Positions 6,672-26,763 of a stretch of DNA of 64,000 nucleotides are shown here, one piece after another. Below the pieces are notes generated by a model. The model worked only from the letters and a program-made list of their open reading frames with translations. It was not told the DNA's origin and did not search any database. A program made the translations under genes and the position numbers. The DNA is from a virus. The stretch spans positions 281,155 to 345,154 of IMG/VR virus record IMGVR_UViG_3300023184_000025. The stretch is one strand, 5' to 3'. Position 1 is the first letter of the stretch. Each line of letters starts with the position of its first letter.

Positions 6672-6770
6672 TTTTATTTTCCTTAAAAAAAGAATGAGTT
6701 TTAAATCATTCACTATTATGTATCAGTGTTTGCAACAATGTTAATTAAAATTGGGGGTATTTTGGTCCAA

Positions 6771-6793
6771 AAAAAACCCGCCGAAGCGGGTTC
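6771..6793 (-). terminator. Terminator of the tmRNA gene
   Basis: AACCCGC CGAA GCGGGTT followed on the minus strand by eight T, just after the tmRNA coding piece. Confidence 0.85.
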
Positions 6794-7065
6794 TGAGTTT
6801 CTGTTACGAGGTATGTCTTACCCTAGACGGCTTTTATCAAGCTGCCAATGCGAACTGTTCGTCGTTTGCGTTTACGTTTTTTGCTTGATTTACGGTCATC
6901 GCCTACCGTGCTGTCCACTCTGTTACTCTTTGCCCTGTCAAAACCATGCTCACCCCCGACAAGAATATACTAACCTAGTATACTCTTGGTGGAAGTGCCG
7001 GGGCTCGAACCCGGGTCCAAGACAACTTTCTCTTCGCCTCTTCCCTTTCGGGGTTTACAGCAATA
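6775..7065 (-). ncRNA. ssrA: Circularly permuted (two-piece) tmRNA
   Basis: Read on the minus strand, the acceptor piece comes first: a T-arm (CCGGG, TTCGAGC, CCCGG) and CACTTCC-A-CCA ending at 6987. A 29-nt spacer (6986-6958) follows, then the coding piece from 6957 (GGGGGTG). GGGGGTG pairs with CACTTCC over 7 bp (two G-U) to make the acceptor stem, which proves the permuted order. The tag frame (6869-6840) encodes ANDEQFALAA followed by TGA TAA. Two-piece tmRNA is known in alphaproteobacteria, some cyanobacteria and some betaproteobacteria. It rescues stalled ribosomes and tags peptides for ClpXP. The 5' end of the acceptor piece is approximate; the HNH stop codon is just upstream. Confidence 0.93.
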
Positions 7066-7068
7066 TTC

Positions 7069-7701
7069 TTATTTAATCAATCTACGCTTTTGTAAATTCA
7101 ATTCTGCTATTTTAGCATCGTCTGGCTTTAGATAGTAATTCTTCTCACCATCGTTATACCAGTGTCTACCAAACGCATTGTTGTTTTTATTCTTGCGTAG
7201 TTGAGTCCATTCAATTGTTGTTATCCAACCTTCTGGAATTTGTTCTTTATTATACTTTTTGCGTGATGACAAGTCAACCGCATCTTTACCCACACACCAA
7301 ACTTTTCCAAACTGCGAATTGTTTTCTTTCTGTTGGTGTTGCTTTTCAGCAAAGGTCTTCTTACGCTTTTCCATTGCTGAGTCAGTGTTTGCCAAATCAC
7401 ACACCTTCTTTTGATGTTCTTTGTTTACAGAAAAATTGTGTTCAGTGCGAATACCTGTAAATGGATTTGGGTGTAGTTGATGACGCAACTTTCCCGCTTC
7501 TCGTTGTCTTATTCTTACTAATTCTTCTTTTGGGCTTAACTTTGCTAAACCCTGCCACGCAACATAATCTTGCCAACGACCATATTCTTCATATAACTTG
7601 CGATGTGCTTCTGCGTGGTCATCAACAGATAATTCTACAAGATTGCTTGGATCGTCTGTTCCGCCTGCGTGTTTAGGAATAATATGATGTTTGTGGCTCA
7701 T
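7069..7701 (-). CDS. HNH homing-type endonuclease
   Basis: 210 residues. The N-terminus has the HNH core: HHIIPKHAGGTDDPSNLVELSV with DHAEAH following (residues 4-35). The C-terminal half is basic with repeated short NUMOD-like segments (W.. DGEKNYYLKPDDA). This is a free-standing mobile endonuclease of the phage type. It ends only a few bases before the tmRNA acceptor piece, suggesting the cassette targets ssrA. Confidence 0.85.
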   Translation of the reverse strand: MSHKHHIIPKHAGGTDDPSNLVELSVDDHAEAHRKLYEEYGRWQDYVAWQGLAKLSPKEELVRIRQREAGKLRHQLHPNPFTGIRTEHNFSVNKEHQKKVCDLANTDSAMEKRKKTFAEKQHQQKENNSQFGKVWCVGKDAVDLSSRKKYNKEQIPEGWITTIEWTQLRKNKNNNAFGRHWYNDGEKNYYLKPDDAKIAELNLQKRRLIK

Positions 7702-7740: not shown

Positions 7741-8052
7741 TTAAATATTTCCTAATCCTACACGACTATAACCCAACTTGGATTTAATCTCTTTACGGTC
7801 TCGATTCTTCTCTGGTTTCCACGCCCGTGGGTCGACGGTTTCACCAGTTAGTTCATAACGAAAGTCTGGATCGTAAACCATATATCCCAGTTTGTTCCAT
7901 TTGATTACCCCATCGTCAAATAGAAAAATACAACCACGACACATACAGAAACTGGCACCGTTTTCACTCATTACATTACCATTCACCGTGCCAACATATT
8001 TGACCACATTACCCTGGTGCATTTCTTTAAGTGCTTCGTAGTAGTCAATCAT
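7741..8052 (-). CDS. Hypothetical protein in HNH cassette
   Basis: 103 residues, starting MIDYYEALKEMHQGNVVKYVGT; resembles small phage proteins of the DUF2829 or 'Thoeris anti-defense 2' look (short N-terminal helix, then VV.. DG..KWN), with a Cys pair FCMCRGC near residue 36. Overlaps the upstream ORF by 4 bp (ATGA). Assignment is weak. Confidence 0.65.
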   Translation of the reverse strand: MIDYYEALKEMHQGNVVKYVGTVNGNVMSENGASFCMCRGCIFLFDDGVIKWNKLGYMVYDPDFRYELTGETVDPRAWKPEKNRDRKEIKSKLGYSRVGLGNI

Positions 8053-8279
8053 TCATCAACTCCAAAAACAAACTTGATACGATTGGCAACCACCTTGCCA
8101 TCATATCGGGTGTCGTTAGCAACATCTAAACATTCATTGATGATTAGTTCTGCGAATTTTTCTAAACGGATCTTATCCCATTCTTGAATTTTGAATCCAT
8201 CTTTGGGATCAAATTGGTATATCTTATCAGCAGATAAGTTAGCCTGTTCAGTAAGTTGTTTTATCTTCTGTTCGTTCAT
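8049..8279 (-). CDS. Small hypothetical protein in HNH cassette
   Basis: 76 residues, mostly helical (KIKQLTEQANLSADKIYQF, LEKFAELIINECLDVAN). The EKFAELIINECL type helix is common in small phage proteins. Translationally coupled with the next ORF. No function known. Confidence 0.7.
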   Translation of the reverse strand: MNEQKIKQLTEQANLSADKIYQFDPKDGFKIQEWDKIRLEKFAELIINECLDVANDTRYDGKVVANRIKFVFGVDE

Positions 8280-8282: not shown

Positions 8283-8347
8283 GGTCTTTGCGGTGTCCTA
8301 CCCTTGCGTCCAGAACACTTTTCTCTTTGCTTCATACAGCAATAACT
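8283..8347 (-). pseudogene. Degenerate copy of the tmRNA acceptor-piece region
   Basis: On the minus strand this stretch matches the true acceptor piece (7075-7010) in order: TAAGAGTTATTGCTGTA against TAAGAATATTGCTGTA, then AAAGAGAAAAGTGTTCTGGAC against GAAGAGAAAGTTGTCTTGGAC, but the T-arm and acceptor pairing are lost. The HNH cassette lies exactly between the two copies. Confidence 0.45.
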
Positions 8348-8348: not shown

Positions 8349-8993
8349 TTACTTATTGATTATACTGTCAACAAAGTCTAATAGCAATGCATAATGGCTA
8401 CCTTGATGATATTTGCCCTTCATCCAACTGTAACTATCATACCAATGCCGTTCACTTTCAGGATGACACCCTATTAATCCAATTTGGTTTTGAATTATGG
8501 CCATTGGATCACCATTGGCATAACGAGCAACAGTTTCGAACTTAGACTCGTCTCCAACTAAAGCGCACCCGTCATACCAAAACATGTTTGTGGGAGTGCC
8601 GTTCCAGGTTATACTGATATTTTTTGCATGCGGCCTGCGAGTATCAGTGTCAGGGCGTGTTATATACTGTACTGCATCAACGCCGTCTAGCAAATTAAAA
8701 TACTCACTGCCAGCCCAGTATGCACCCATACAGATACCAAGGTATGCTCCACCACGATTAACAAATTCCTGTATCCTAAGTCCGTTTTCTCTAGTTAAAA
8801 AATTAAAATTACTGGCATCTCCCAGACCACCGGGAAAACATATCATGTCAACATCGTCAAAAAAATCCGCCTCTAATTCCTGGCGGGTGAATATTTTAAA
8901 TGTGTAGTTTGACGAAAGGGCTTTAATGATACCGTTGCCACTTTGCACGGAGCAATATGGTTGGTGCAAAAATAATGCAATGCGACCGTTCAT
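8349..8993 (-). CDS. Class I glutamine amidotransferase-like protein (BPL_N type)
   Basis: 214 residues. The N-terminus (RIALFLHQPYCS), CFPGGLGDA near residue 55, nucleophile elbow GICMGAYWAG near residue 87 and GCHPESE near residue 172 match the DJ-1/GATase-like domain found at the N-terminus of eukaryotic biotin-protein ligases and in many bacterial and phage proteins. Cys and His are in place, the usual third residue (Glu) follows the His. The substrate is unknown. It stands alone, with a 43-residue membrane ORF just upstream. Confidence 0.75.
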   Translation of the reverse strand: MNGRIALFLHQPYCSVQSGNGIIKALSSNYTFKIFTRQELEADFFDDVDMICFPGGLGDASNFNFLTRENGLRIQEFVNRGGAYLGICMGAYWAGSEYFNLLDGVDAVQYITRPDTDTRRPHAKNISITWNGTPTNMFWYDGCALVGDESKFETVARYANGDPMAIIQNQIGLIGCHPESERHWYDSYSWMKGKYHQGSHYALLLDFVDSIINK

Positions 8994-8995
8994 GA

Positions 8996-9127
8996 TTATT
9001 TGTGTGGTTTTAAAAAGTCATCGTCTTTTGAATCTTCATCAAATTTGGACCAATCGTAGGTAGCAACTGAATATATCCAATATCCATACAGTCCAAAAAT
9101 TAAAATTAATAAAATTAGATTAGACAT
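8996..9127 (-). CDS. Small single-pass membrane protein
   Basis: 43 residues, ATG 9127: a hydrophobic helix (NLILLILIFGLYGYWIY) and an acidic, polar tail. It sits 2 bp upstream of the amidotransferase-like gene. No family recognised. Confidence 0.55.
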   Translation of the reverse strand: MSNLILLILIFGLYGYWIYSVATYDWSKFDEDSKDDDFLKPHK

Positions 9128-9141
9128 ACTACTCGAGATAT

Positions 9142-9654
9142 TTAGTCAACAGTTTTATTGACTGTTACCCCGGACTTTTCTAAAAATTTTACCCCTGAAT
9201 CATCTCGGTATGCTTCTCCGTAAAATACTCTGCGTATTCCGGATTGATAAATCAGTTTAGCGCATTCAATGCAGGGAGCATGAGTAACAAACAAATCAGC
9301 ACCGTCGCCACTTTCTGTGCTCTTGGCCAATTTTGCAATGGCGTTAGTTTCAGCATGAAGTACCTCTGGTTTAGTTTTTAATCCGTATCTATACTCTTCT
9401 TCAGCATCTTCGTTATATTCTGTATACGGATACATCGATTCAAACTCATCGGGACTAATCCATCCTCCTGCTCCAGAGTCATATACTTTATCTTCGCAAT
9501 TATTATCCCAACCAGCCGGCATACCATTGTAGCCAATTGAGATGATTCTATCATCCTTGACCACAATAGCACCCACATGCAATCTACGAGCATGACTAAG
9601 TTTGGCAAATGTTTTAGCAACATCCATATAGGCCTGAATAAATTTCTGTTTCAT
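9142..9654 (-). CDS. Deoxycytidylate (dCMP) deaminase
   Basis: 170 residues. Zinc deaminase motifs HAETNAIAKL (near 100) and PCIECAKLI (near 126) are intact, with the phage-type N-terminal SHARRLHVGAIVVKDDRIISIGYNGMP. The enzyme makes dUMP from dCMP for dTMP synthesis and is standard in T4-like phages. It follows the metallophosphoesterase gene by 1 bp. Confidence 0.92.
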   Translation of the reverse strand: MKQKFIQAYMDVAKTFAKLSHARRLHVGAIVVKDDRIISIGYNGMPAGWDNNCEDKVYDSGAGGWISPDEFESMYPYTEYNEDAEEEYRYGLKTKPEVLHAETNAIAKLAKSTESGDGADLFVTHAPCIECAKLIYQSGIRRVFYGEAYRDDSGVKFLEKSGVTVNKTVD

Positions 9655-12453: not shown

Positions 12454-12528
12454 TGGCCGGTCCTGAGAGGATCGAACTCCCACCCTCTGTTTCGAAGACA
12501 GAGATGATATCCATTTCACCAAGGACCG
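12454..12528 (-). tRNA. tRNA-Arg (UCG)
   Basis: Full cloverleaf; anticodon loop CTTCGAA; acceptor CGGTCCT/AGGACCG; CCA encoded. Confidence 0.93.
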
Positions 12529-12531
12529 ATG

Positions 12532-12605
12532 TGGTGCTCTCAACAAGAATTGAACTTGTGTTTCGCCCTTACCAAGGGCGTGTAATGCCATTATACTATG
12601 AGAGC
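12532..12605 (-). tRNA. tRNA-Thr (GGU)
   Basis: Acceptor GCTCTCA/TGAGAGC, loop TTGGTAA, CCA encoded; 3 bp upstream of tRNA-Arg(UCG). Confidence 0.92.
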
Positions 12606-12646
12606 AGAATTTGTAATATTGATAAAGTTTTAATGTAAATAAAAAC

Positions 12647-13372
12647 ATGCCTAATTATGATTCCTTTTATAAAAATCTTGCTAACAAAACTGTAGACTGG
12701 TTGCCCATGGACACTGAAGAATTATACAAGAAAAATCTTGACAAACGCCACGGTGATCTAGTACTACAGGGCTGGATAGATAATCACTTTACATATGAAT
12801 TTAACTCACATGGGTTTAGGTGTAAAGAGTTTACCGACAAACCTAGTATCATGTTTCTTGGATGTAGTTTTACAATGGGTATGGGATTACCTGTAGACTT
12901 AATTTGGCCTGAGTTAGTATCAAAGAATCTAAATTTACAATGTGTTAATCTTGGCATTGCCGGCTCCTCTGCTGATACAGCATTTAGGTTATGCCATGGA
13001 TGGCTAGATAAAATTAATCCAAACACAGTTATTTTTATGCAACCCCCGGGCATAAGATGTGAACTGGTAACCGACGATAGTATTAAAAATGTAGATATTG
13101 AAGATCCATCAACAAAAGAGTTTATCAAACTTTGGACAGTAGACGAAAATAATAATTATTTCAACACTGAAAAAAATACATTAGGTATACAAATGCTGTG
13201 TACTGCCAAAGGAATCAAGTTTGTTACAGTTAATGCTAACACACTCACATCAAGCTACTCTAATTCATTTGGTAGAGACCTTTGCCATCCGGGCATTGAC
13301 AGGCATCGAGTTTTTGCTGAACGATTGTCAATGAAGCTTGGAGCGGGTAGAGAGAATCGAACTCTCAACTAA
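12647..13372 (+). CDS. SGNH-hydrolase-like protein (plus strand)
   Basis: 241 residues on the strand opposite to its neighbours. Block I-like GCSFTMGMGL lies near residue 73, a Gly/Asn block LGIAGSSADTAF near 105, and a DLCHPGIDRH ending near 215, the order of SGNH esterase folds. The last ten residues are read from the antisense strand of tRNA-Gly, so the gene overlaps a tRNA tail to tail. At least three other SGNH-like genes occur in the window. Possible roles are glycan deacetylation or esterase action. Confidence 0.7.
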   Translation: MPNYDSFYKNLANKTVDWLPMDTEELYKKNLDKRHGDLVLQGWIDNHFTYEFNSHGFRCKEFTDKPSIMFLGCSFTMGMGLPVDLIWPELVSKNLNLQCVNLGIAGSSADTAFRLCHGWLDKINPNTVIFMQPPGIRCELVTDDSIKNVDIEDPSTKEFIKLWTVDENNNYFNTEKNTLGIQMLCTAKGIKFVTVNANTLTSSYSNSFGRDLCHPGIDRHRVFAERLSMKLGAGRENRTLN

Positions 13373-13412
13373 ACCTTGGCAAGGTCTCGGGTTACCATTA
13401 CACCATACCCGC
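13339..13412 (-). tRNA. tRNA-Gly (GCC)
   Basis: Acceptor GCGGGTA/TACCCGC, loop TTGCCAA, T73, CCA encoded. Its 3' end overlaps the plus-strand SGNH-like gene by 34 bp. Confidence 0.93.
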
Positions 13413-13422
13413 ATTAAATAAC

Positions 13423-13893
13423 TCAAGCTACTTTTAAAGTTTTGAAACGATCAGCGGCATAGCTTGCGGCAAATGCGTTGGGTTTAACAAACGGTACAAC
13501 ATTACATGTTCCTTTAATATAGCCAATAGCCTGGCTAATAACACAGCTAGATCCATACTGATCATCAGGGTTAATGTCCAAGTGGACTTGAACCTGTCTA
13601 CCTTCAAATACATCTGCTAGCTTTAGGTACAACTCGCTAACTTTATACACTTCGGACATGAGGCGCATTGCTGGCCTATTGACTTTGTGATCGTAATCAC
13701 GTTCACGTTGTACCTCACCAAATAACTTACAACCGTTATTTCCGTTAATGTGTACAACAATAGCCAAGACGTAGTCAGCATACCACTGACCGTCAACACG
13801 CATACGTTCAGAATCACAGCCTAGATAAATTTTAGTATCTGGCCCTTGCGCTTCAATAAAGCTCTTGATTTCTTCTAGATTAATTTTTTTCAT
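13423..13893 (-). CDS. RNase H-like protein (DUF458/YkuK type)
   Basis: 156 residues. IYLGCDSERMRVDG (22-35) gives the first acidic residue of an RNase H fold; HLDINPDDQYGSS near 103 and a conserved Gly/Lys-rich C-terminus (IGYIKGTCNVVPFVKPNAFAA is the YkuK-like block) complete it. Bacillus YkuK is of unknown function. It may be a nuclease. Confidence 0.7.
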   Translation of the reverse strand: MKKINLEEIKSFIEAQGPDTKIYLGCDSERMRVDGQWYADYVLAIVVHINGNNGCKLFGEVQRERDYDHKVNRPAMRLMSEVYKVSELYLKLADVFEGRQVQVHLDINPDDQYGSSCVISQAIGYIKGTCNVVPFVKPNAFAASYAADRFKTLKVA

Positions 13894-13904
13894 GATTACC
13901 TCAG

Positions 13905-14684
13905 TTACGAGCTGGCATCAAGTACATGACTATACATGATGTCCTTTACTGTAGCAGTCCTTTCATTTTTGTTTTTGCTTCCCAATACCACAATCACGTA
14001 GTCTTTGTCTTTTTGTGTCACAAACAAACTCATACACCAACCTGCGGCATTGGTAAGACCAGTTTTGCTAATCACAATGTTGTTAAATTCAAACAACAAT
14101 GGTTGATTGGTATTGGTTAAGTTTACAATTTGAGATTTTTTCTTGACCTGTGTTTCAATTGAAACAGTTTTCTTAACTGATGCTTCTTTAATAAACCAAT
14201 AGCCGGATGCTGTTTGCACCATGTTGGCCACGTCATATACTGTGCTTACATTAAACACACTTAGGCCAGTTGGGTCAATAAATGCAGTATTATTCATTCC
14301 CCACACTTTGGCATGTAGGTTCATTTGTTTAACAAATTCGCTTCTTCCACCAGGATAATCTTCAGCAATAGTTTCGGCCGCGGCGTTGTCACTGCGAACT
14401 AGCATTGCATTTAACAGTTCGTATCTGGTGTAATATTGTCGTGGAATACTACTTGGAACACGACCACTAAGTAAAAGTTTTCTACCTAGGTCTTTGTTGT
14501 AGTCAAGTGTGACCATTGCGGTCATTAATTTAGTAATACTAGCAATAGGACGAATTTCTTCACCGTTGTGTACATATTGTGGTTTGTTGGAGACCACATC
14601 CAAGACTAATATACTTGAATCACTAGGAAATGCATAAGTGGGTATGCTAACCAGCATTGCAAGCATTATAAAAAGTCTCTTCAT
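13905..14684 (-). CDS. Periplasmic D-Ala-D-Ala carboxypeptidase/endopeptidase (S11, PbpG-like)
   Basis: 259 residues with a signal peptide (1-18, ending TYAF). All three penicillin-binding motifs are present: SITK near 49, SDN near 98, and KTG near 207. The size and the SDNAAAETIAEDYPGG and WGMNNTAFIDPTGLS segments match small S11 enzymes such as PBP7. It would act on peptidoglycan cross-links in the periplasm. In a phage it could aid lysis, remodel the wall for superinfection exclusion, or help growth of a large infected cell. Confidence 0.9.
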   Translation of the reverse strand: MKRLFIMLAMLVSIPTYAFPSDSSILVLDVVSNKPQYVHNGEEIRPIASITKLMTAMVTLDYNKDLGRKLLLSGRVPSSIPRQYYTRYELLNAMLVRSDNAAAETIAEDYPGGRSEFVKQMNLHAKVWGMNNTAFIDPTGLSVFNVSTVYDVANMVQTASGYWFIKEASVKKTVSIETQVKKKSQIVNLTNTNQPLLFEFNNIVISKTGLTNAAGWCMSLFVTQKDKDYVIVVLGSKNKNERTATVKDIMYSHVLDASS

Positions 14685-14717
14685 GATGCTTCCTTTGTTC
14701 TATTATATATGCTAAAT

Positions 14718-14794
14718 TGGTGCCCCAGAGGAGACTCGAACTCCTAAAATTTGGCTTCTAAGACCAACACGTATACCAATTCCGTCACCGGGGC
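14718..14794 (-). tRNA. tRNA-Leu (UAG), short variable loop
   Basis: Acceptor GCCCCGG/CTGGGGC, loop CTTAGAA, T-arm AGGAG TTCGAGT CTCCT, CCA encoded. The variable region is only 5 nt (ATTTT), not the long arm normal for bacterial tRNA-Leu. Confidence 0.88.
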
Positions 14795-14806
14795 TTTAAA
14801 TACAGT

Positions 14807-14956
14807 ATGATTAATTGTAACACATCTACTGATATATTGTATGAGAAATTGGCAAAACAGTCTTATATTTCTCCAACTTACCATAGCACACATCGTGTGT
14901 TTGTTCCTGATCCACTGCTGAATACACCCAAACCTAAGTTTATTCCTGATCCATTA
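14807..14956 (+). other. Possible small plus-strand ORF with internal repeat
   Basis: An ATG frame begins at 14807 and contains VPDPLL ... IPDPLL as a repeat (CCTGATCCA twice) before running into antisense tRNA-Phe at 14958; it stops at 15022. There is no good ribosome site. It may simply be a spacer with a short duplication. Confidence 0.2.
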
Positions 14957-14957
14957 T

Positions 14958-15033
14958 TGGTACCAAGAGACGGGATCGAACCGTCCACACCCGGATTTTC
15001 AGTCCGGTGCTCTACCAACTGAGCTATCTTGGC
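14958..15033 (-). tRNA. tRNA-Phe (GAA)
   Basis: Loop CTGAAAA, canonical D and T arms, CCA encoded. Confidence 0.95.
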
Positions 15034-15035
15034 AT

Positions 15036-15111
15036 TGGGGTAACTAATGGGAATCGAACCCATATTAACGGAATCACAATCCGTGGTGTTAACCTTTACA
15101 CTATAGTCACC
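15036..15111 (-). tRNA. tRNA-His (GUG)
   Basis: Loop TTGTGAT; the extra G at -1 opposite C73 that marks tRNA-His is encoded; CCA encoded. Confidence 0.93.
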
Positions 15112-15116
15112 ATAGA

Positions 15117-15401
15117 TTAATCTTGGTCAGGCGGTAATCCATTACTGCGTCGATCACGAAGAGTATCAGTGTTCTGAAACATTCGTTTCTCTTGCTGTGT
15201 CAACTCTTTAAACGTTTTCCTGGGATTACCGCACATTACACAATTTGGGTTGCCACAGTTCATAGCATGATGCTTGGCAAACTTATGTGGTTCTTCAACT
15301 GGTATCCCAAATTCTTTGGCAATCTTTACCTGCTTGTTAATAGCATTATCATCTTTAAGCAATCGCTTGCTATGTTTGAATTTATCGTTTTCGTCTGACA
15401 T
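15117..15401 (-). CDS. Small zinc-ribbon-like protein
   Basis: 94 residues with HHAMNCGNPNCVMCGNPRK near 44-62, a compact CxxxxCxxC knuckle, and a C-terminal LTQQEKRMFQ segment. This family is common in phages and environmental bacteria as a hypothetical protein. It sits among tRNA genes. Confidence 0.75.
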   Translation of the reverse strand: MSDENDKFKHSKRLLKDDNAINKQVKIAKEFGIPVEEPHKFAKHHAMNCGNPNCVMCGNPRKTFKELTQQEKRMFQNTDTLRDRRSNGLPPDQD

Positions 15402-15415
15402 TGAATACTCCTATA

Positions 15416-15505
15416 TGGTGGAAGCGGTGAGATTCGAACTCACGGACCCTTGCGAGCCGACAGTTTTCAAGACTGTTGCCATAAACCTGACTCGACCACA
15501 CTTCC
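15416..15505 (-). tRNA. tRNA-Ser (UGA)
   Basis: Loop CTTGAAA, long variable arm, GGAAGTG/CGCTTCC acceptor, CCA encoded. Confidence 0.94.
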
Positions 15506-15508
15506 TGA

Positions 15509-15946
15509 TTATTCTACTTCAGGGGCAGGTTTAACTTTCCCCCATTCAATAAAATTAAATACTCTCTCTACAATAAAGAAAAAAGTCATATTTGTCAATG
15601 CCTGTGCTATTGCAAATAGCACAGCGTCGGACCCACTGCTTTTAATAATGAATATGGCTATGAGATATCCAACAAACATAGTTATTGCACGATAGATAAT
15701 GGTTTTAATTACACTACGTTTGATATTGTCAACTCCTGAATTGTTTCTTGCCCAACCAGTAAGCAACCACAACCTGTCATGCACATAATAAATTGCTGTG
15801 CCTACTACAATTATAATTAAGCCAACCATACCAGCTGACGACATGCTGGCGCCAACCAGCAGTGATAACAACATGGCAGCTACCACAGAGAAAAATCTGT
15901 ATATAACTGCTTTTACTATTGTTCTTGTTTGTGTTTCTTTTATCAT
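15509..15946 (-). CDS. DUF2061 membrane protein (tandem repeat)
   Basis: 145 residues. Two copies of the DUF2061 pattern, each starting R(T/S)IVK/VIKT.IYR (residues 8-16 and 76-86) and followed by two membrane helices. Role unknown; these short inner-membrane proteins are sometimes seen near sulfate assimilation genes in bacteria. Confidence 0.75.
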   Translation of the reverse strand: MIKETQTRTIVKAVIYRFFSVVAAMLLSLLVGASMSSAGMVGLIIIVVGTAIYYVHDRLWLLTGWARNNSGVDNIKRSVIKTIIYRAITMFVGYLIAIFIIKSSGSDAVLFAIAQALTNMTFFFIVERVFNFIEWGKVKPAPEVE

Positions 15947-15968
15947 ATTACTTCCTTATATTTAATAC

Positions 15969-16042
15969 TGGCGTACCCACTAGGACTCGAACCTAGACTG
16001 ACGGTTTTGGAGACCGCGATGCTGCCATTACACTATGGATAC
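15969..16042 (-). tRNA. tRNA-Trp (CCA)
   Basis: Loop CTCCAAA, acceptor GTATCCA/TGGGTAC, G73, CCA encoded. Confidence 0.93.
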
Positions 16043-16046
16043 AAAT

Positions 16047-16124
16047 TGGAACAACGGGTGAGATTTGAACTCACGACTTTACGGATTTGCAATCCGTTGC
16101 TTTTGACCACTCAGCCACCGTTGC
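16047..16124 (-). tRNA. tRNA-Cys (GCA)
   Basis: Loop TTGCAAA; U73 as required for CysRS; G1-U72 wobble; CCA encoded. Confidence 0.9.
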
Positions 16125-16129
16125 ATAAT

Positions 16130-16206
16130 TGGTCGGAATAGTAGGATTCGAACCTACGACCTCCTGGTCCCAAACCAGGCGCACTACCAGGCTGTGCTAC
16201 ACTCCG
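16130..16206 (-). tRNA. tRNA-Pro (UGG)
   Basis: Loop TTTGGGA, acceptor CGGAGTG/TATTCCG, A73, CCA encoded. Confidence 0.93.
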
Positions 16207-16212
16207 AATAAC

Positions 16213-16287
16213 TGGTGGGTGATGAGAGGATCGAACTCCCGACAAACTGCGTGTAAGGCAGCGACTCTACCGCTGAGCTAATCACCC
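16213..16287 (-). tRNA. tRNA-Val (UAC)
   Basis: Loop CTTACAC, acceptor GGGTGAT/ATCACCC, CCA encoded. Confidence 0.93.
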
Positions 16288-16293
16288 TAAACA

Positions 16294-16367
16294 TGGAGCG
16301 GGGTAAGAGAATCGAACTCTCAGCATTAGCTTGGAAGGCTAAGGTATTACCACTATACGAACCCCGC
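16294..16367 (-). tRNA. tRNA-Gly (UCC)
   Basis: Loop CTTCCAA, acceptor GCGGGGT/ACCCCGC, CCA encoded. Confidence 0.93.
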
Positions 16368-16385
16368 ATTGTAATTTACTTATAT

Positions 16386-16460
16386 TGGTAGCCATGGACA
16401 GTTTCGAAATGTCGACCCCGACCTTATCAAGATCGTGCTCTTCCTCTGAGCTACACGGCT
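16386..16460 (-). tRNA. tRNA-Ile (GAU)
   Basis: Loop TTGATAA, acceptor AGCCGTG/CATGGCT, CCA encoded. The T-stem closing pair is U-C instead of G-C, so the T-arm is weakened. Confidence 0.87.
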
Positions 16461-16466
16461 AAAATC

Positions 16467-16543
16467 TGGCAGGAGATATAGGATTCGAACCTATGCGTGT
16501 CGGAATCAAAATCCGATGCCTTAACCAACTTGGCGAATCTCCA
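16467..16543 (-). tRNA. tRNA-Gln (UUG)
   Basis: Loop TTTTGAT; 5' end TGGAGAT leaves an unpaired 1-72 position, tolerated or preferred by GlnRS; G73, CCA encoded. Confidence 0.9.
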
Positions 16544-16551
16544 ACAAAGCC

Positions 16552-16627
16552 TGGTGGTAATGGCTGGACTCGAACCAGCGATAGACTGCGTATGAAGCAG
16601 TTGCATTGGCCACTATGCTACATTACC
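16552..16627 (-). tRNA. tRNA with CAU anticodon (elongator Met likely)
   Basis: Loop TTCATAC, paired G1-C72, so not an initiator. Elongator Met is favoured over lysidine-Ile because the second CAU tRNA (26764) has the more Ile2-like anticodon stem. Confidence 0.85.
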
Positions 16628-16646
16628 ATATAGAGGCACTCTCAAC

Positions 16647-16715
16647 AGCAGGCCTAGGAGGCAATCTGGTTGCTGAAACTTTTGCATCTGCAGATACTCA
16701 GTTTCTTCTCCTGCT
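16647..16715 (-). ncRNA. Structured spacer between tRNA-Met and tRNA-Lys
   Basis: Nested pairing AGCAGG/CCTGCT, GAAACT/AGTTTC and ATCTG/CAGAT in a 115-bp gene-free gap. May be a processing signal or small RNA. Confidence 0.3.
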
Positions 16716-16742
16716 TTGACTTACGCCAAGAATGCTTTTATA

Positions 16743-16818
16743 TGGTAGGACGTATTGGATTCGAACCAATGACCAATAGATTAAAAGTCTACTGCTCTAC
16801 CAACTGAGCTAACGTCCC
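16743..16818 (-). tRNA. tRNA-Lys (UUU)
   Basis: Loop CTTTTAA, acceptor GGGACGT/ACGTCCT, CCA encoded. Confidence 0.94.
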
Positions 16819-16869
16819 ACTAATCTTCTCACTCTTATCACTGTCCATGTGGACTCTCCTTAAAAACTA

Positions 16870-16945
16870 TGGTGGAGGATACAGGGATCGAACCTGCGAC
16901 CTACTGGTTGCAAACCAGTCGCTCTCCCAACTGAGCTAATCCCCC
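16870..16945 (-). tRNA. tRNA-Ala (UGC)
   Basis: Loop TTTGCAA, acceptor GGGGGAT/ATCCTCC; the G3-U70 identity pair of tRNA-Ala is present; CCA encoded. Confidence 0.94.
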
Positions 16946-16951
16946 AAATAC

Positions 16952-17028
16952 TGGTACCACCTGAGCGAGTTGAACGCCCTACCCCCAAGTTCGTAGCCTG
17001 GTGCTCTATCCAAATGAGCTAAGGTGGT
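16952..17028 (-). tRNA. tRNA-Arg (ACG)
   Basis: Loop CTACGAA, acceptor ACCACCT/AGGTGGT, CCA encoded. A34 would need TadA editing to inosine. Confidence 0.9.
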
Positions 17029-17034
17029 ATAAAA

Positions 17035-17110
<76 letters not shown>

Positions 17111-17115
17111 TTGTT

Positions 17116-17191
17116 TGGCTCCTCGACCTGGGCTCGAACCAGGGACAACTTGATTAACAGTCAAGTGCTCTACCAACTGAGCTATCAAGGA
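17116..17191 (-). tRNA. tRNA-Asn (GUU)
   Basis: Loop CTGTTAA, acceptor TCCTTGA/TCGAGGA, G73, CCA encoded. Confidence 0.94.
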
Positions 17192-17199
17192 ATAAAATA

Positions 17200-17350
17200 G
17201 TTAACACACTCCGAGGAATGTGTGTATTAAAGCACTCTAAAATACTTAGGCTGCCTGTTCTTAAAGAATGCTTTAATACGCTGTAATTTTTCCCTACACA
17301 AGAGTAGTTCCATCCTACAGGCCGCCCATTTGCCCATGTTTAGAGTGCAG
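17200..17350 (-). ncRNA. Pseudoknotted structured RNA downstream of a 57-residue ORF
   Basis: GTATTAAAGCA (17224-17234) pairs with TGCTTTAATAC (17269-17279), and GCACTCTAAA (17232-17241) pairs with TTTAGAGTGC (17339-17348). The order a-b-a'-b' makes an H-type pseudoknot, with a shared GCA at the junction. A CACAC/GTGTG hairpin flanks it next to tRNA-Asn. No ORF fits. Confidence 0.55.
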
Positions 17351-17380
17351 GCTAGGATCTCGTTTCCTATAACACTTTGG

Positions 17381-17554
17381 CTAATTTACACTAAACGTTG
17401 ACAATTTGGTCAACGCTTCGTGATGTTTTCTAGCACGTTCAAACTTATCTTGAATAAGTTTTTGAAGCTGTTCTTTGGACATCTCTCCGAGAGCAGTTTC
17501 ATAAGCTTGTTCTACGATTCGTTCGTTTAATTTTTTGTAATCTATCTGTTTCAT
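17381..17554 (-). CDS. Small helical protein in the tRNA array
   Basis: 57 residues from ATG 17554 with ribosome site AAAGGA. The sequence is strongly helical and charged (LNERIVEQAYETALGEMSKEQLQKLIQDK). It lies between a terminator and a pseudoknotted RNA. No family recognised. Confidence 0.7.
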   Translation of the reverse strand: MKQIDYKKLNERIVEQAYETALGEMSKEQLQKLIQDKFERARKHHEALTKLSTFSVN

Positions 17555-17569
17555 TTTTTCCTTTGTAAA

Positions 17570-17603
17570 AACAAAAAACCCCAGGGTGTTTAGTCCTAGG
17601 GTC
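17570..17603 (-). terminator. Intrinsic terminator inside the tRNA/ncRNA region
   Basis: Minus strand ACCCTAGG ... CCTGGGGT (8 bp with one G-U) followed by TTTTTTGTTTTT. Confidence 0.65.
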
Positions 17604-17627
17604 CTTTTAGAATTTGATGTATTTTTA

Positions 17628-17759
17628 TTACATCTTGTCTCCTACGGACCCTTGATTTTCTGGAATTGTAATTGCACAGTTAAAATTAAAACCGCGTGAC
17701 CAGGCAGATGCTGTCTGGAGCATAACGGGTTTTAACGATAACATGTAATGTTTGTTCAT
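17628..17759 (-). CDS. Possible 43-residue ORF or small structured RNA
   Basis: ATG 17759 to TAA 17628 encodes 43 residues without similarity known to me. The ATG lies about 10 bp after a -10 box, with no ribosome site, so a leaderless ORF or a non-coding RNA (hairpin CCAGGCAG ATG CTGTCTGG at 17701-17719) are both possible. Confidence 0.3.
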   Translation of the reverse strand: MNKHYMLSLKPVMLQTASAWSRGFNFNCAITIPENQGSVGDKM

Positions 17760-17769
17760 CTTAGTTTCT

Positions 17770-17798
17770 ATTGTACTTTATTTATATCTTAAAGTCAA
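17770..17798 (-). promoter_or_regulatory. Internal sigma70 promoter in the tRNA array
   Basis: TTGACT (17798-17793), 17 bp, TACAAT (17775-17770). Confidence 0.6.
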
Positions 17799-17845
17799 CC
17801 TTTAAGGTAAAAATGTTGTGTTGTATAGATACAACACTCCTGAGT

Positions 17846-17920
17846 TGGTTGCGGGGGAAGGATTCGAACCTCCGTCTTCCGGGTTATGAGCCCGATAGTC
17901 TACCACTGACGTACCCCGCG
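17846..17920 (-). tRNA. Initiator tRNA-fMet (CAU)
   Basis: Loop CTCATAA in a stem with three G-C pairs next to the loop, and an unpaired C1-A72, the two hallmarks of bacterial initiator tRNA. CCA encoded. Confidence 0.93.
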
Positions 17921-17942
17921 GTAAAAGTTAGAGTTTTTATAT

Positions 17943-18018
17943 TGGCGGTCTTAGGGGGTAACGATCCCCACTCTTACGGCGTGACAAGCCGTCGTGCGTC
18001 CATGAACACTTTAAGACC
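17943..18018 (-). tRNA. tRNA-Asp (GUC), unusual T-loop
   Basis: Perfect acceptor GGTCTTA/TAAGACC, loop TTGTCAC, G73, CCA encoded. The T-loop reads ATCGTTA instead of TTCRANY, so the T54-A58 pair appears swapped. Confidence 0.85.
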
Positions 18019-18024
18019 AAATTT

Positions 18025-18171
18025 TTATAGTCAAGCACCGAGTATGCCAATTTAGGAGTCCGGTGCTTCCGTTCCAAAGCCGATGCAGTTATATCAGGAT
18101 CCGCCTCCGGCCGATGGGACCCGAATAGTGTATGCGTCCATACACGATACCTTATCGATGCTTGACTATAA
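18025..18171 (-). ncRNA. 147-nt structured RNA closed by a 13-bp perfect helix
   Basis: 18025-18037 and 18159-18171 are perfect inverted repeats. Inside are GTGTATG CGTC CATACAC (18128-18145) and AAGCACCG/CGGTGCTT (18033-18040 with 18061-18068). The last helix shares AAGCA with the closing helix, so two folds compete. No ORF. Confidence 0.6.
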
Positions 18172-18174
18172 AAA

Positions 18175-18257
18175 CATATTGAAACACACTAACTACCTTG
18201 GTATGTACTAAAGTTCATAGAACCGCTACGACCCTATCTTTAATGTGCTTCAATATG
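18175..18257 (-). ncRNA. Structured RNA with a 14-bp closing helix
   Basis: 18175-18188 pairs with 18244-18257 over 14 bp; the single imperfect position is G-U on the minus strand but A-C on the plus strand, which supports minus-strand RNA. Confidence 0.5.
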
Positions 18258-18454
18258 CTCTGCATCCCCCGGCGGTAATTATAGAGTATCAAGATACGAC
18301 GCTATCGTACCCATCACACACTCCTTCCACCCGCTTCCCGACAGGGACCGTTCTCGCATTGCTAGCGGCCTTTTGGTTCGAAGACTACCACCCGTACATG
18401 TCACTGTACTTCTCATCGTGTGGGTCACACTATCCGGAGACACCCGGAACGTTC
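18258..18454 (-). other. Gene-free spacer before tRNA-Tyr
   Basis: About 200 bp with several short hairpins (TACGA/TCGTA, GTACA/TGTAC, GTGTG/CACAC). The plus-strand frame through it ends in antisense tRNA and lacks a ribosome site. Possibly part of one larger ornate RNA with its neighbours. Confidence 0.35.
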
Positions 18455-18541
18455 TGGTGGATGAGGTTGGACTTGAACCAACAATGCCATTACGACGGAA
18501 GATTTACAGTCTCCTGGGGTTACCAATTTTCCTACACATCC
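18455..18541 (-). tRNA. tRNA-Tyr (GUA)
   Basis: Loop CTGTAAA, long variable arm, CCA encoded. The acceptor has one T-T mismatch (GGATGTG/CTCATCC). Confidence 0.9.
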
Positions 18542-18544
18542 AAA

Positions 18545-18600
18545 ATTAGGATAAGCTACTTGTTTTCCAAACAAGCCCTTAATTGAGCGGTTACTCTGTC
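18545..18600 (-). pseudogene. tRNA-like relic with GGA anticodon-type hairpin
   Basis: GCTTGTTTGGAAAACAAG resembles an anticodon arm of tRNA-Ser(GGA), but the flanking acceptor and T-arm do not pair and the region touches tRNA-Tyr. It may be a decayed tRNA or just a hairpin. Confidence 0.25.
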
Positions 18601-18729
18601 CATCTCTTTTATTCTAATGTCTGTGTGCAGAGAGATACTGCCTATCAGATTCTGGATTGCTCCGCTAACGGTCTTCTGCCACCGGACCTCTATCGCTAGT
18701 CAAGCGCCATTTTAACGAAAATAGTAACG
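18588..18729 (-). ncRNA. Structured spacer between tRNA-Glu and tRNA-Tyr
   Basis: Outer pairing GTTACT/AGTAAC (18590-18595 with 18723-18728) encloses ATCTCT/AGAGAT, CGCT/AGCG and ATTTT/AAAAT hairpins. No ORF. Confidence 0.4.
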
Positions 18730-18734
18730 GGATT

Positions 18735-18809
18735 TGGTACTGGGTACGGGAATCGAACCCGTCTTACAAACGTGAAAGGCTTGTGTCCTAACCGATAGAC
18801 GAACCCAGC
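18735..18809 (-). tRNA. tRNA-Glu (UUC)
   Basis: Loop CTTTCAC, acceptor GCTGGGT/ACCCAGT with G1-U72, CCA encoded. Confidence 0.92.
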
Positions 18810-18840
18810 ATAAAGAAAAACCCTATAGCAGTCCAGTTAA

Positions 18841-18927
18841 GCAACCGAACAGGGCCGTGTTAAAGAGAGAAGCCACGGTTGCAGGACCTAGTGCTCTTGC
18901 GAGGAAGTATCCAGGCGATGTGGCTTC
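18841..18927 (-). ncRNA. Pseudoknotted spacer between tRNA-Ser and tRNA-Glu
   Basis: GCAACCG (18841-18847) pairs with CGGTTGC (18876-18882), and GAAGCCAC (18869-18876) with GTGGCTTC (18920-18927): again a-b-a'-b' order with one shared base at the junction. Confidence 0.5.
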
Positions 18928-18934
18928 AAAAACT

Positions 18935-19024
18935 TGGCGGAGCGACTGGGAGTCGAACCCAGTCAACGCTTTAACACGTTGTACGGATTAGCAATCCGCT
19001 GCCTTACCGTTCGGCCACCGCTCC
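18935..19024 (-). tRNA. tRNA-Ser (GCU)
   Basis: Loop TTGCTAA, long variable arm, GGAGCGG/CGCTCC type acceptor, G73, CCA encoded. Confidence 0.93.
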
Positions 19025-19035
19025 AAAAAAAATGC

Positions 19036-19269
19036 TATATTAAAATACACTAAAGGAACCATTGTGCATCTATGTCTACACTATACGAACGTCTCGTATA
19101 GGCCTGCACGGTCATTACTGCCTACATACTCCGCCGCTTCTCTGGGATTAGTTCCGTATCATCTAAACGGACCCCGGTTTCATAGACTGTAAGATTGCGT
19201 AGGGCGGCCCCTGTGCTCGCGTCTTACAGTCCCTAACGGTGTAGGTAACCTTTAATACATTTTAATATA
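19036..19269 (-). ncRNA. 234-nt structured RNA at the head of the tRNA/RNA operon
   Basis: A 21-bp closing helix (19036-19056 with 19249-19269) is fully paired only in minus-strand RNA, where four positions are G-U or A-U; on the plus strand they would be A-C. Inside are perfect hairpins GACTGTAAGA/TCTTACAGTC (19185-19194 with 19222-19231) and CTATACGA/TCGTATAG (19081-19101). No ORF. It lies just downstream of a perfect consensus promoter. Comparable in position to the T4 stable RNAs C and D, but no sequence match is claimed. Confidence 0.65.
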
Positions 19270-19288
19270 GTAACCCTTGCGGGTTACT
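19270..19288 (-). other. Leader hairpin
   Basis: AGTAACCC TTGC GGGTTACT, an 8-bp hairpin between the promoter and the 234-nt RNA; no T run follows on the minus strand, so not an obvious terminator. Confidence 0.4.
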
Positions 19289-19344
19289 ACATAAAAACTC
19301 TAAAATTTTTAAAGAACATTGTTGATTTCTCAACGTATGCATCA

Positions 19345-19373
19345 ATTATATGACACTTTGCGATTTTTGTCAA
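19345..19373 (-). promoter_or_regulatory. Perfect consensus sigma70 promoter of the tRNA/ncRNA operon
   Basis: TTGACA (19373-19368), 17 bp, TATAAT (19350-19345), pointing into the RNA cluster. Confidence 0.85.
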
Positions 19374-19437
19374 CTACTTGTTTGTTGTATTTTTACAACA
19401 CTCTGTTGTTGTCCGGAATTGCTTCCTTCATGTTTCT

Positions 19438-19466
19438 ATTGTACTAGATCTGCCAATTTTGGTCTA
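19438..19466 (-). promoter_or_regulatory. Second, weaker sigma70 promoter of the RNA operon
   Basis: TAGACC (19466-19461), 17 bp, TACAAT (19443-19438). Confidence 0.45.
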
Positions 19467-19471
19467 CCTAT

Positions 19472-19505
19472 AAAAAGAAAACCCGCCTAGTTGGCGGGTC
19501 TTTGT
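19472..19505 (-). terminator. Intrinsic terminator upstream of the RNA operon promoters
   Basis: ACCCGCC TAGTT GGCGGGT with T-rich tract on the minus strand, 17 bp past the 34-residue ORF; it would insulate the RNA operon. Confidence 0.75.
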
Positions 19506-19521
19506 TGATAGTACTTTCTAG

Positions 19522-19626
19522 TTATCTAGATTTCTCAAGACCCGCATCAGACATGTGTTCATAGTCATAACTCACAAAATCTCGTGTGTTACTATTAGTG
19601 TGCATAGACAATGGTTGATAGTTCAT
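19522..19626 (-). CDS. Possible 34-residue ORF
   Basis: ATG 19626 to TAA 19522 just before a terminator; TATAAT is 5-10 bp upstream, no ribosome site. Sequence is polar. Unrecognised. Confidence 0.35.
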   Translation of the reverse strand: MNYQPLSMHTNSNTRDFVSYDYEHMSDAGLEKSR

Positions 19627-19729
19627 AGTACTATTATATATCCATAATCTTTAAAAATTAATTTTTTCCTAGTTTTTTTACCAAAGCAACTACCCGGGTC
19701 CAAATAAATAAATTTTTAAAAAGTATCAA

Positions 19730-20434
19730 ATGATCAATACTAATACAGATAAAATAATAATTATATGTTATTCTAGTTTTAGCGGCGGAAAATTTTTAGT
19801 TAACAGTCTAGGGTTAAGCAATAAAATTGTATTACAAGATATCAACTTGGCAACACAGCAAGCAAATGGAAATTTCTCAAAACAGGAAAAGTTTGAATAT
19901 TTTGTTACAAAATTAAACGAAAATGGACCCACTAAAGAATGGAACGATCTTGGACTAGGGTGTTTTCAGTTTTTTGGTGTTCTTGACAAGGAATACTTGC
20001 AAAACAAAGTCACTGTAGAAAGATTTGACAACAAAATTTCAAATATCATTGACAATGATCTAACATTTTTTCTAGTTGCACATAATTACATTTTTTTGCC
20101 AAAATATTTAGAGGTATGGAAGAATGCAAAAATTATAGTGTTTGAAAACTCTGATTTGTTTATTAAATGGAGAACAAACGGAAAACAGACTGACAATGGT
20201 GCGTTTTCAAGAGAGAAATTTTTAGATAAAAATGTAATACACTATTTTGACAATAATAATTATTTTTCAAAAATCAAGACCCTAGACGAGATTGAAAAAA
20301 TGCATCAGGTATTAGACTTACCTGACTTTGATAAAGAGTTAGTATCAAACTACTATGATTTATGGATGAGCAAGTTACTAGAAAATAAAATATACTGGGA
20401 AAAAAGTAATAAATCTGGCAGAATCAATTTTTAA
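19730..20434 (+). CDS. Hypothetical protein, possible P-loop/sulfotransferase-like
   Basis: 234 residues on the plus strand. The N-terminal strand and loop IIIICYSSFSGGKFLVNSL (9-27) look like a nucleotide-binding loop of sulfotransferase-type P-loop proteins without the classical GKS/T; HNYIFLPKYLEVWKNAKIIVFENSD near 118 continues the alpha/beta pattern. The protein at 56857-57432 has a similar N-terminus (YPPGAGGRWLSNLIY). AT-rich relative to neighbours. Confidence 0.6.
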   Translation: MINTNTDKIIIICYSSFSGGKFLVNSLGLSNKIVLQDINLATQQANGNFSKQEKFEYFVTKLNENGPTKEWNDLGLGCFQFFGVLDKEYLQNKVTVERFDNKISNIIDNDLTFFLVAHNYIFLPKYLEVWKNAKIIVFENSDLFIKWRTNGKQTDNGAFSREKFLDKNVIHYFDNNNYFSKIKTLDEIEKMHQVLDLPDFDKELVSNYYDLWMSKLLENKIYWEKSNKSGRINF

Positions 20435-20515
20435 GTATGTTTATTTCCTTTTTGTATCATTGGTTTAAATATTATATAAATCAAAGCCGTAGCTGGCATC
20501 ATAAAGGAGTAATCA

Positions 20516-21250
20516 ATGGTTACCAAGAAAGCACCAGTCAGAAAGGCACCTGTCAAGAAAGTAGTTGCTAAAAAAACACCTGTTAAAAAGGCACCCGTTA
20601 AAAAGACAACCACAGCACCAATTGTGATTGATGTCAGTAGCACTACTAAATCAGCATCATCCATGTTGGACAAGGCCATAGACCTAATCAAGTGGGTGGA
20701 CACACCGTTCAAACTGTTTGAAGTTATCTTGTTGGCCAGCGTGTTCTTTTTTGGCTATTTCGCCTGGGACAGCAGAACTGTTATTTTAAATGCAATAACA
20801 CAAAGCAGTCATATAACAAATCTCAAAGAAGTAAATCATCTTATACCAGTTGCTGTTGGTCTACAAAAAGACTTGGATGCGGTATCTGTAGTAGTACACA
20901 AAGCCAGTTTAGTTACCAACACCCGAACAACCATGTTAGCTTTTGGTCCTAAGGGCAGAGATAATGCATTAGACGGGTTGGTTTCCAGTTTGTTCAACAA
21001 AGATCCCATACGCAATGCCGCTATCATTGGCATGCTCAACGGTGAAGTTGTTTGCGATAAGTTAGAAGTAACAGGCAAGACTTCAGAATGGGAAGTCAAG
21101 CAAGGCGCCACATTTATCTGTCGTGGTGGTATTCCTCCAGAAGTGGGAGATTTTGATGGATACGTGTCAGTTGGATTCAAAACAGAACCAACAGAACTAA
21201 CTGTGGTTAAAACTAGAATTAATCTAGCCACATCTGAGATGTCGCAATGA
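20516..21250 (+). CDS. Single-pass membrane protein with histone-like tail; possible T4-type holin
   Basis: 244 residues, ribosome site AAAGGAG. Residues 1-35 are Lys/Ala/Pro/Val repeats (KKAPVKK), residues 67-87 a membrane helix (LFEVILLASVFFFGYFAW), then a roughly 155-residue outer domain with two Cys (VVCDKL, FICRGG). A short cytoplasmic N-terminus, one helix and a periplasmic domain with a Cys pair is the layout of T4 holin T, and this block also carries a lipoprotein. The basic tail is unlike T. Holin is a guess from topology. Confidence 0.5.
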   Translation: MVTKKAPVRKAPVKKVVAKKTPVKKAPVKKTTTAPIVIDVSSTTKSASSMLDKAIDLIKWVDTPFKLFEVILLASVFFFGYFAWDSRTVILNAITQSSHITNLKEVNHLIPVAVGLQKDLDAVSVVVHKASLVTNTRTTMLAFGPKGRDNALDGLVSSLFNKDPIRNAAIIGMLNGEVVCDKLEVTGKTSEWEVKQGATFICRGGIPPEVGDFDGYVSVGFKTEPTELTVVKTRINLATSEMSQ

Positions 21251-21591
21251 AATGGCTAATAGTATTTTTATTACTGCTAATTTCATGTATACCAAGTTCA
21301 AGTCAGCCGTGTGATGATTGTATAGGTGGAGTTGTTGCTACAGATACTAACACTTGTTTGGTATCTAATTTTTATAAAATTGCTTATTCAATTCATGACC
21401 CTGGTTTACGACACCAACAGTTATCATCGTGGTTAACAACCAACGGAAACAAATGTGACAGCAAACAACTTGTTATAATTTGGAATCGTCTTGCTGAATG
21501 GGGTGGCGCCGCCGACTCAGCAGAATTGCGAGGCAAACTACTTTATTATTTTTCTAGAGCCGAAGAGAGGGAACGCAAGGAAAAATCATAA
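21247..21591 (+). CDS. Small lipoprotein
   Basis: 114 residues. MKWLIVFLLLLISC gives a signal with lipobox LISC (Cys14), followed by a Cys pair CDDC. The C-terminus is charged and helical (YYFSRAEERERKEKS). Its ATG overlaps the upstream stop by 4 bp. It could be an outer-membrane spanin subunit paired with the preceding membrane protein, but this is inference. Confidence 0.6.
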   Translation: MKWLIVFLLLLISCIPSSSQPCDDCIGGVVATDTNTCLVSNFYKIAYSIHDPGLRHQQLSSWLTTNGNKCDSKQLVIIWNRLAEWGGAADSAELRGKLLYYFSRAEERERKEKS

Positions 21592-21824
21592 TGGATGCAA
21601 TCAGATGGTTCCCAATAGTGCAACCAAGTTACGCAAATGTAGATGGTATTTTAGCCGATGTTCACGCAAGAAAAAATGAAGAACGCTGGGCTGAATACAA
21701 CAAAGAGTTAGTTGAAAAAATACATTTCAGGGACTATTTGTATGATTTGTATTTGAAAAGAGCACACGAAAATCACATACGCATGGAAATATTCAACGTG
21801 AGTACCATAGATTATTATGTTTAA
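21591..21824 (+). CDS. Small hypothetical protein
   Basis: 77 residues, start overlapping the previous stop by one base (TAATG). Mostly helical and charged (DVHARKNEERWAEYNKELVEKI). Likely cotranscribed with the membrane and lipoprotein genes. Unrecognised. Confidence 0.65.
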   Translation: MDAIRWFPIVQPSYANVDGILADVHARKNEERWAEYNKELVEKIHFRDYLYDLYLKRAHENHIRMEIFNVSTIDYYV

Positions 21825-21833
21825 TTAAAATTG

Positions 21834-22922: not shown

Positions 22923-22940
22923 ACTCTATTTAAACTTGTT

Positions 22941-22965
22941 AAAAAGCCCGGTTGCCCGGGCTTTT
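22941..22965 (-). terminator. Terminator of groES-groEL
   Basis: GCCCGG TTGC CCGGGC between A and T runs, 4 bp past the groEL stop codon. Confidence 0.85.
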
Positions 22966-22968
22966 AGA

Positions 22969-24887
<1,919 letters not shown>

Positions 24888-24997
24888 ATTTTTCTCCTTT
24901 AAAGTAAGCAAGATTTTATTCATGACCCGCGAACGGCATCACGAATCAATATTTATAATTCGTTATTTTATACTATACAAAAAATATTTGCAACCAA

Positions 24998-26762: not shown

Positions 26763-26763
26763 T

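Follow-up and report, generated by a model that had tools for sequence, protein, structure and literature searches.

A two-piece tmRNA gene of a large phage, probably remade by a homing endonuclease cassette

Results

Anatomy of the tmRNA gene

The window, meaning the whole stretch of DNA analysed, covers the final 64 kb of a 345,154-base IMG/VR phage record (G000:281155–345154). Positions 6775–7065 of its minus strand constitute an intact circularly permuted two-piece tmRNA gene. ARAGORN calls a permuted tmRNA at 6746–7079 (−) with the tag ANDEQFALAA closed by two stops, and the covariance search that the earlier note proposed as a check, once run, gave full-length matches to two Rfam models. 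RF01850 (beta_tmRNA) matches 6771–7115 (−) with 120.4 bits (E 4e-36, cut-off 84), and RF04321 (tmRNA_permuted) matches 6837–7062 (−) with 111.8 bits (cut-off 47; E 6.9e-24 when the whole record is searched).

Read 5′ to 3′ on the minus strand, the gene consists of an acceptor piece, a 29-nt hairpin spacer, a coding piece and a terminator-like hairpin. The acceptor piece (6987–7064; placed by the Rfam matches and the letters, 5′ end approximate) holds the P2 5′ strand TTGCTGTA, the T-arm CCGGGTTCGAGCCCCGG (6998–7014), the acceptor 3′ strand CACTTCC (6991–6997) and an encoded ACCA (6987–6990). The spacer (6958–6986) forms an 11-bp hairpin of −9.5 kcal/mol (z −3.4), as the earlier note had described it. 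The coding piece (6796–6957; placed by ARAGORN, Rfam and the letters, 3′ end approximate) begins with the acceptor 5′ strand GGGGGTG (6951–6957) and continues through the tag frame into the 3′ region. The tag frame with its TGA occupies 6837–6869, the ten tag codons lying at 6840–6869, and a second stop, TAA, follows at 6834–6836; ARAGORN and the letters thus agree with the tag and LAA end that had been read earlier. The hairpin with a T run at the gene end (6771–6795), seen in the sequence, lies inside the RF01850 match and is missing from the list of the consensus scan. A promoter scan near the tmRNA gene returned no site clearly exceeding chance.

The order of the pieces and the 7-bp pairing of their ends, both claimed in the earlier note, are confirmed by the letters and by the fold. 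The acceptor stem GGGGGTG/CACTTCC includes two G-U pairs, at positions 3 and 4, so that the G3-U70 alanine signal is present. The acceptor strands and spacer together fold at −23.1 kcal/mol (z −5.8) with no shuffle equalling them, and therefore the two pieces join; a best fold leaving them apart was what the earlier note had named as evidence against its reading.

An endonuclease gene and a second acceptor fragment

Upstream of the tmRNA gene lie features that the earlier note did not mention. An HNH homing endonuclease gene encoding 210 aa (7069–7701, −) has its stop codon a few bases ahead of the tmRNA. Its product matches PF01844 with 24.7 bits (cut-off 21.4) as well as phrog_655 (homing endonuclease), and the His/Asn/His residues of the HNH domain are present (HHIIP...N...H). 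Two small ORFs without a family match in profile searches follow at 7741–8052 (−; 103 aa, conserved in other cassettes) and 8049–8279 (−; 76 aa), and in the same searches none of the cassette ORFs matched an integrase. Ahead of these ORFs and the HNH gene, 1.2 kb upstream of the tmRNA, a 39-nt fragment (8307–8345, −) aligns with the 5′ half of the acceptor piece, up to the T-arm, of the tmRNAs in two related loci, L178 and L210. This fragment, which appears to be a relic of the previous acceptor piece, is together with its flank 98.5% identical to the intact tmRNA in both loci, and it recurs at 95–100% identity in many others. Adjoining the relic, about 770 bp at 8374–9144 with a BPL_N/GATase-like gene (8349–8993) are missing in L178.

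Empty and occupied sites in sister phages

The L178 locus, taken from a 341,990-base contig of a sister phage about 90% identical to the window, provides a direct comparison. L178 and L210 match the window at about 85–91% on both sides of the cassette. Behind their dCMP deaminase gene stands a single uninterrupted permuted tmRNA, whose acceptor stem is GGGCCTG/CAGGTCC and whose spacer measures 98 nt. Homology of the window follows the L178 tmRNA from just upstream to GGACG at the T-arm start, stops at 8307, and resumes at 6886, just ahead of the tag, after which the two are near-identical through tag, 3′ end and terminator. The window segment 6887–8306 (−), comprising the ORFs, the HNH gene, the new acceptor piece, the spacer and the 5′ half of the coding piece, stands in place of 215 bp of L178, and the acceptor stems of the two loci differ on both strands together. 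Because homology stops within the acceptor piece and resumes within the coding piece, the tRNA-like half would have been replaced by the cassette and the tag half kept. The changed tRNA-like half points to co-conversion of flanking sequence at a homing site.

Replacement of the 215 bp by the cassette is the simplest account of this alignment. Loss of the cassette from L178 is disfavoured, since it would leave a T-arm and stem of the window type and L178 has neither, although L178 may later have been converted by a third tmRNA. L178 is a present-day sister and not the ancestor, and either locus could have been rebuilt by later recombination. A 262-kb contig, L002, shows the same arrangement as the window at 99.99% identity, which would argue against chance misassembly if the contig is independent of G000.

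Recurrence at other phage loci

Relatives of the HNH gene, looked for in viral contigs by protein alone, gave 33 loci; 25 of them contain a tmRNA, permuted in 24 cases. At L003, L004 and others the cassette alone matches the window and the flanks are unlike. L031 and L232 form a second clear pair of an occupied and an empty allele at one site in related phages, alongside the window and L178: in L031, as in L174, a flank 95% identical to that of L232 leads into a relic that reaches the T-loop, then an antisense HNH gene with ORFs, and a complete tmRNA downstream, with the break point as in the window/L178 pair. Compared with L279, L003 has a relic, five ORFs including an HNH gene, and a tmRNA. 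A close relative of the window cassette at L003:5623–5975 has the tag ANDESFRIAA, which ends in RIAA as against ALAA.

The occupants are not of one family. Compared with L284, L254 has a relic, after which come the gene of a 252-aa protein bearing a GIY-YIG domain of the SegE type and then tmRNA sequence, and L263 has a GIY-YIG gene resembling that of L254 behind its relic. Across occupied loci the breaks lie between the T-arm start and the T-loop, and the endonuclease gene next to them is of the GIY-YIG family or of the HNH family, the latter in sense or antisense direction. L009 and L007 each have two relics, with the HNH gene after the second, a layout that successive landings would produce. 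Of the phage tmRNAs that the patterns matched, most among those listed have no adjoining relic, and several relic loci yielded no close empty sister; L172, L234, L252 and L271 are intact genes and were left out of the relic set.

The relics are 95–100% identical over 39–40 nt between cassettes whose HNH genes are 62–95% identical. Those of the window, L003–L033, L254 and L263 stay alike while neighbouring genes diverge, and a derived relic tail, GGACGCAAGGGT, is common to cassettes of the HNH and GIY-YIG types. L221 (4757–5595) has a relic, then a peptidase family M24 gene (methionine aminopeptidase-like) and not an endonuclease, then the tmRNA.

Phage permuted tmRNAs as a group

Similar permuted tmRNA genes occur on well over a hundred IMG/VR phage contigs. 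Viral contigs were searched with patterns for the T-arm and the acceptor piece, and the matches listed include 132 unique permuted tmRNAs, to which the following counts refer. Both sides vary at acceptor pairs 4 to 6 and in the T stem: pair 4 is G-C in 68, C-G in 58 and G-T in 5, and pair 5 is G-C in 60, C-G in 59 and A-T in 13. The percentage paired is biased upward, as ARAGORN and our parsing both demand a plausible stem, but this bias does not account for the swaps between G-C and C-G. Pair 3 is G-U in 131 of the 132, CCA is encoded in 122, and the tag ends in AA in 123.

Some members depart from the window gene in spacer or tag. Among the matches listed, a spacer of at least 78 nt occurs in 59 unique phage permuted tmRNAs, and in 22 of these it has a Shine-Dalgarno-like site and a small ORF (L178:3548–3684; the spacers of L194, L196, L201, L231, L176, L188 and others). 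Twelve of these small ORFs have as their stop codon the very TGA with which the spacer closes, and several encode one hydrophobic segment; judged by sequence, such a spacer looks like a mini-mRNA nested in the tmRNA gene. A spacer of this type is what the cassette would have replaced in the window. ARAGORN also calls long tags, such as ANVNKTVTVSGKNIKFSARSAKEALAV, in the tmRNAs of L020, L221, L239 and L256; these are similar across different phage contigs and end in AV or LA, not LAA.

Discussion

Origin of the locus

The gene anatomy, the empty and occupied sister loci and the recurring break point are best explained, with a probability that we put at roughly 75%, by a working phage two-piece tmRNA that was remade by a homing cassette entering near the T-loop. 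Most likely a homing endonuclease gene entered the tmRNA gene; a fragment of the old copy stayed behind, and the incoming DNA brought a new half in exchange. From the comparison of loci we infer the cutting and the route of repair: the cassette would have entered a resident tmRNA near the T-loop, and repair templated by the cassette would have replaced the tRNA-like half, the spacer and the leading part of the coding piece. The tag and 3′ end of the resident gene would have been retained, and the first 39 nt or so of the old acceptor piece left 1.2 kb upstream. Since such a cassette would cut the tmRNA yet supply the replacement half, a selfish gene could spread by cutting a conserved gene that it restores.

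We consider it somewhat probable that this extends beyond the window: cassettes of unrelated endonuclease families would share one landing site, the T-loop of two-piece tmRNA genes in phages, and each landing could swap the tRNA-like half, would leave a conserved acceptor-piece scar and could carry extra genes. The tmRNA of large phages would then serve as an insertion site that bears cargo and repairs itself. Homing at the window locus would in itself mean that the tmRNA T-loop is invaded by a route besides introns or integrases, and would supply a concrete mechanism by which halves of an essential-type RNA gene are swapped between phages. With sister phages that do and do not carry the cassette, homing at an RNA gene becomes directly testable.

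Several observations speak against the main reading: the near-identity of the relics across divergent cassettes is unlike the prediction for a passive scar, and in L221 a peptidase-like gene, with no HNH gene, stands between relic and tmRNA. The missing SmpB, which makes the RNA dependent on a host, and the relic loci that lack a close empty sister also count against it. The upstream fragment might instead be a functional leader or mobile promoter reused ahead of small genes, which would fit 39–40 nt kept at 95–100% identity ahead of unrelated ORFs and the strong sigma-70-like promoters on some relic copies. We regard this as unlikely, given that the relics of the window, L003, L008 and L026 have no sigma-70-like promoter, that several relics come directly after a stop codon, and that empty sisters have an intact tmRNA at the same place. 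Insertion by an integrase, with the HNH gene incidental, has a precedent in genomic islands at ssrA, which leave fragments and restore the tmRNA gene (PMC4131195). It is nonetheless highly improbable here: the cassette ORFs match no integrase, the occupants are endonucleases of different families in different phages, and the replaced tract extends into the coding piece, as for gene conversion.

Other explanations concern what the tmRNA does for the phage. It could be passenger DNA, a conserved insertion target kept intact with little use to the phage while the endonuclease alone is selected; the tight HNH–tmRNA linkage and the swapping of tmRNA alleles along with cassettes would be expected on that basis. 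The covarying acceptor and T stems, the retained G3-U70 and tag ends, the ClpX, ClpP and ClpA-like genes of the same record, and the lack of an adjoining relic at most pattern-found tmRNAs among the matches listed make this very unlikely. An RNA that works against the host, by competing for SmpB or by relabelling products to steer degradation or lysis timing, is in our view a rather doubtful reading. No phage SmpB was found, and a tmRNA tRNA-like domain of phage DS6A that lacks a tag is reported to resemble a tmRNA inhibitor (PMC4131195), but the window RNA has a complete tag with the standard LAA end.

Ribosome rescue

A working tmRNA remade by homing would act as follows. The transcript would fold with its acceptor strands paired, and we infer that tRNA-processing enzymes excise the 29-nt hairpin and trim the ends. 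Host AlaRS would charge the RNA through G3-U70, its delivery to stalled ribosomes would fall to host SmpB and EF-Tu, and products tagged with ANDEQFALAA would presumably go to ClpXP or ClpAP, of host or phage.

The clpP gene to which the earlier note pointed is present at 54747–55340 (−) of the window (NF001368 over cut-off; TIGR00493 304.8 bits against a cut-off of 308.6; PF00574 E 8.5e-82). Elsewhere the record encodes ClpX (G000:93024–94220; 501.7 bits, NCBIfam cut-off 370.75), a ClpA-like protein (G000:7311–9602) that at 800 falls below the ClpA cut-off of 993, and by profile match a second, weaker ClpP-like protein (G000:70323–70898); the ClpX and ClpA-like genes are additions to the earlier note. 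The ClpX zinc finger also occurs in the records of L178, L002, L006 and L239. SmpB, on which the earlier note was silent, was not found in G000 or in 24 other tmRNA-bearing phage records, which may be incomplete, in searches that matched the control genomes. SmpB, AlaRS and EF-Tu would therefore have to come from the host, and the suggestion that the phage could run its own ribosome rescue is half borne out: tmRNA, ClpP, ClpX and the ClpA-like protein are present, and SmpB was not found. The combination raises the question of which steps of trans-translation phages bring.

Relation to known systems

A two-piece tmRNA in a phage is less novel than had been implied, having been published for phage Melnitz and other aquatic phages, with 53 of 133 unique phage tmRNA structures two-piece (PMC9004378). 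Melnitz is likewise a phage with no history of integration that carries a permuted tmRNA gene; its type differs in being alphaproteobacterial and under a glutamine riboswitch, and no homing cassette is described (PMC9004378). Huge phages carry tmRNA and SmpB genes (PMC7162821), and Sinorhizobium phage AP-J-162 carries tmRNA and Clp genes (PMC11242549). These resemble the window phage as large phages with a tmRNA and many tRNAs, and in AP-J-162 with Clp proteins, whereas the two-piece form, the relic and the HNH linkage are undescribed in the accessible parts of both sources (PMC7162821, PMC11242549); huge phages have SmpB genes (PMC7162821), and none was found in the window phage.

SegB of T4/T6 is, like the window HNH protein, a free-standing homing endonuclease in an RNA-gene region; it cuts at a motif resembling a T-loop and drives the genes of that region to be inherited or amplified (PMC2988022, PMC13096335). 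Its reported cleavage motif is RAWTSGAAC (PMC13096335), which on the other strand is, by our own reading, GTTCSAWTY, the tRNA T-loop consensus. SegB differs in being a GIY-YIG enzyme with tRNA-gene targets, with no tmRNA and no relic beside a restored gene (PMC2988022, PMC13096335). Group I introns in the tmRNA T-loop use the same spot in the gene, some with LAGLIDADG genes, but splice out of the RNA (PMC11915505); Rfam gave no group I intron match within the window, the T-loop is unbroken, and a second acceptor piece restores the gene. MobE in nrdA of phage Aeh1 is likewise an HNH homing gene inside a functionally critical phage gene, but there a protein gene is split in two and no duplicated part remains (PMC2988022). 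A search of the open-access literature, outside which most subscription papers lie, turned up no description of a homing cassette in a phage two-piece tmRNA gene.

Relatives and further content of the window

Blastn searches against named phages, with either the 8-kb neighbourhood or just the tmRNA as query, gave only HNH and tRNA fragments plus a single partial match of 70% (Stenotrophomonas phage DLP_6), so there is no cultured close relative. The exact 35-nt acceptor pattern had no match in 84,980 species genomes. In a gammaproteobacterial bin the coding-piece pattern matched a single contig, 3 kb long and carrying a tmRNA and seven tRNAs, which is possibly a misbinned phage. A betaproteobacterial origin or host, as RF01850 being the best model would suggest, was not adopted; some relatives match the alpha model. 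Farther along the window, a gene at 3626–4669 matches TctC, a tricarboxylate transporter receptor (E 1.3e-31), and ARAGORN finds 28 tRNA genes at 12454–26838, all on the minus strand.
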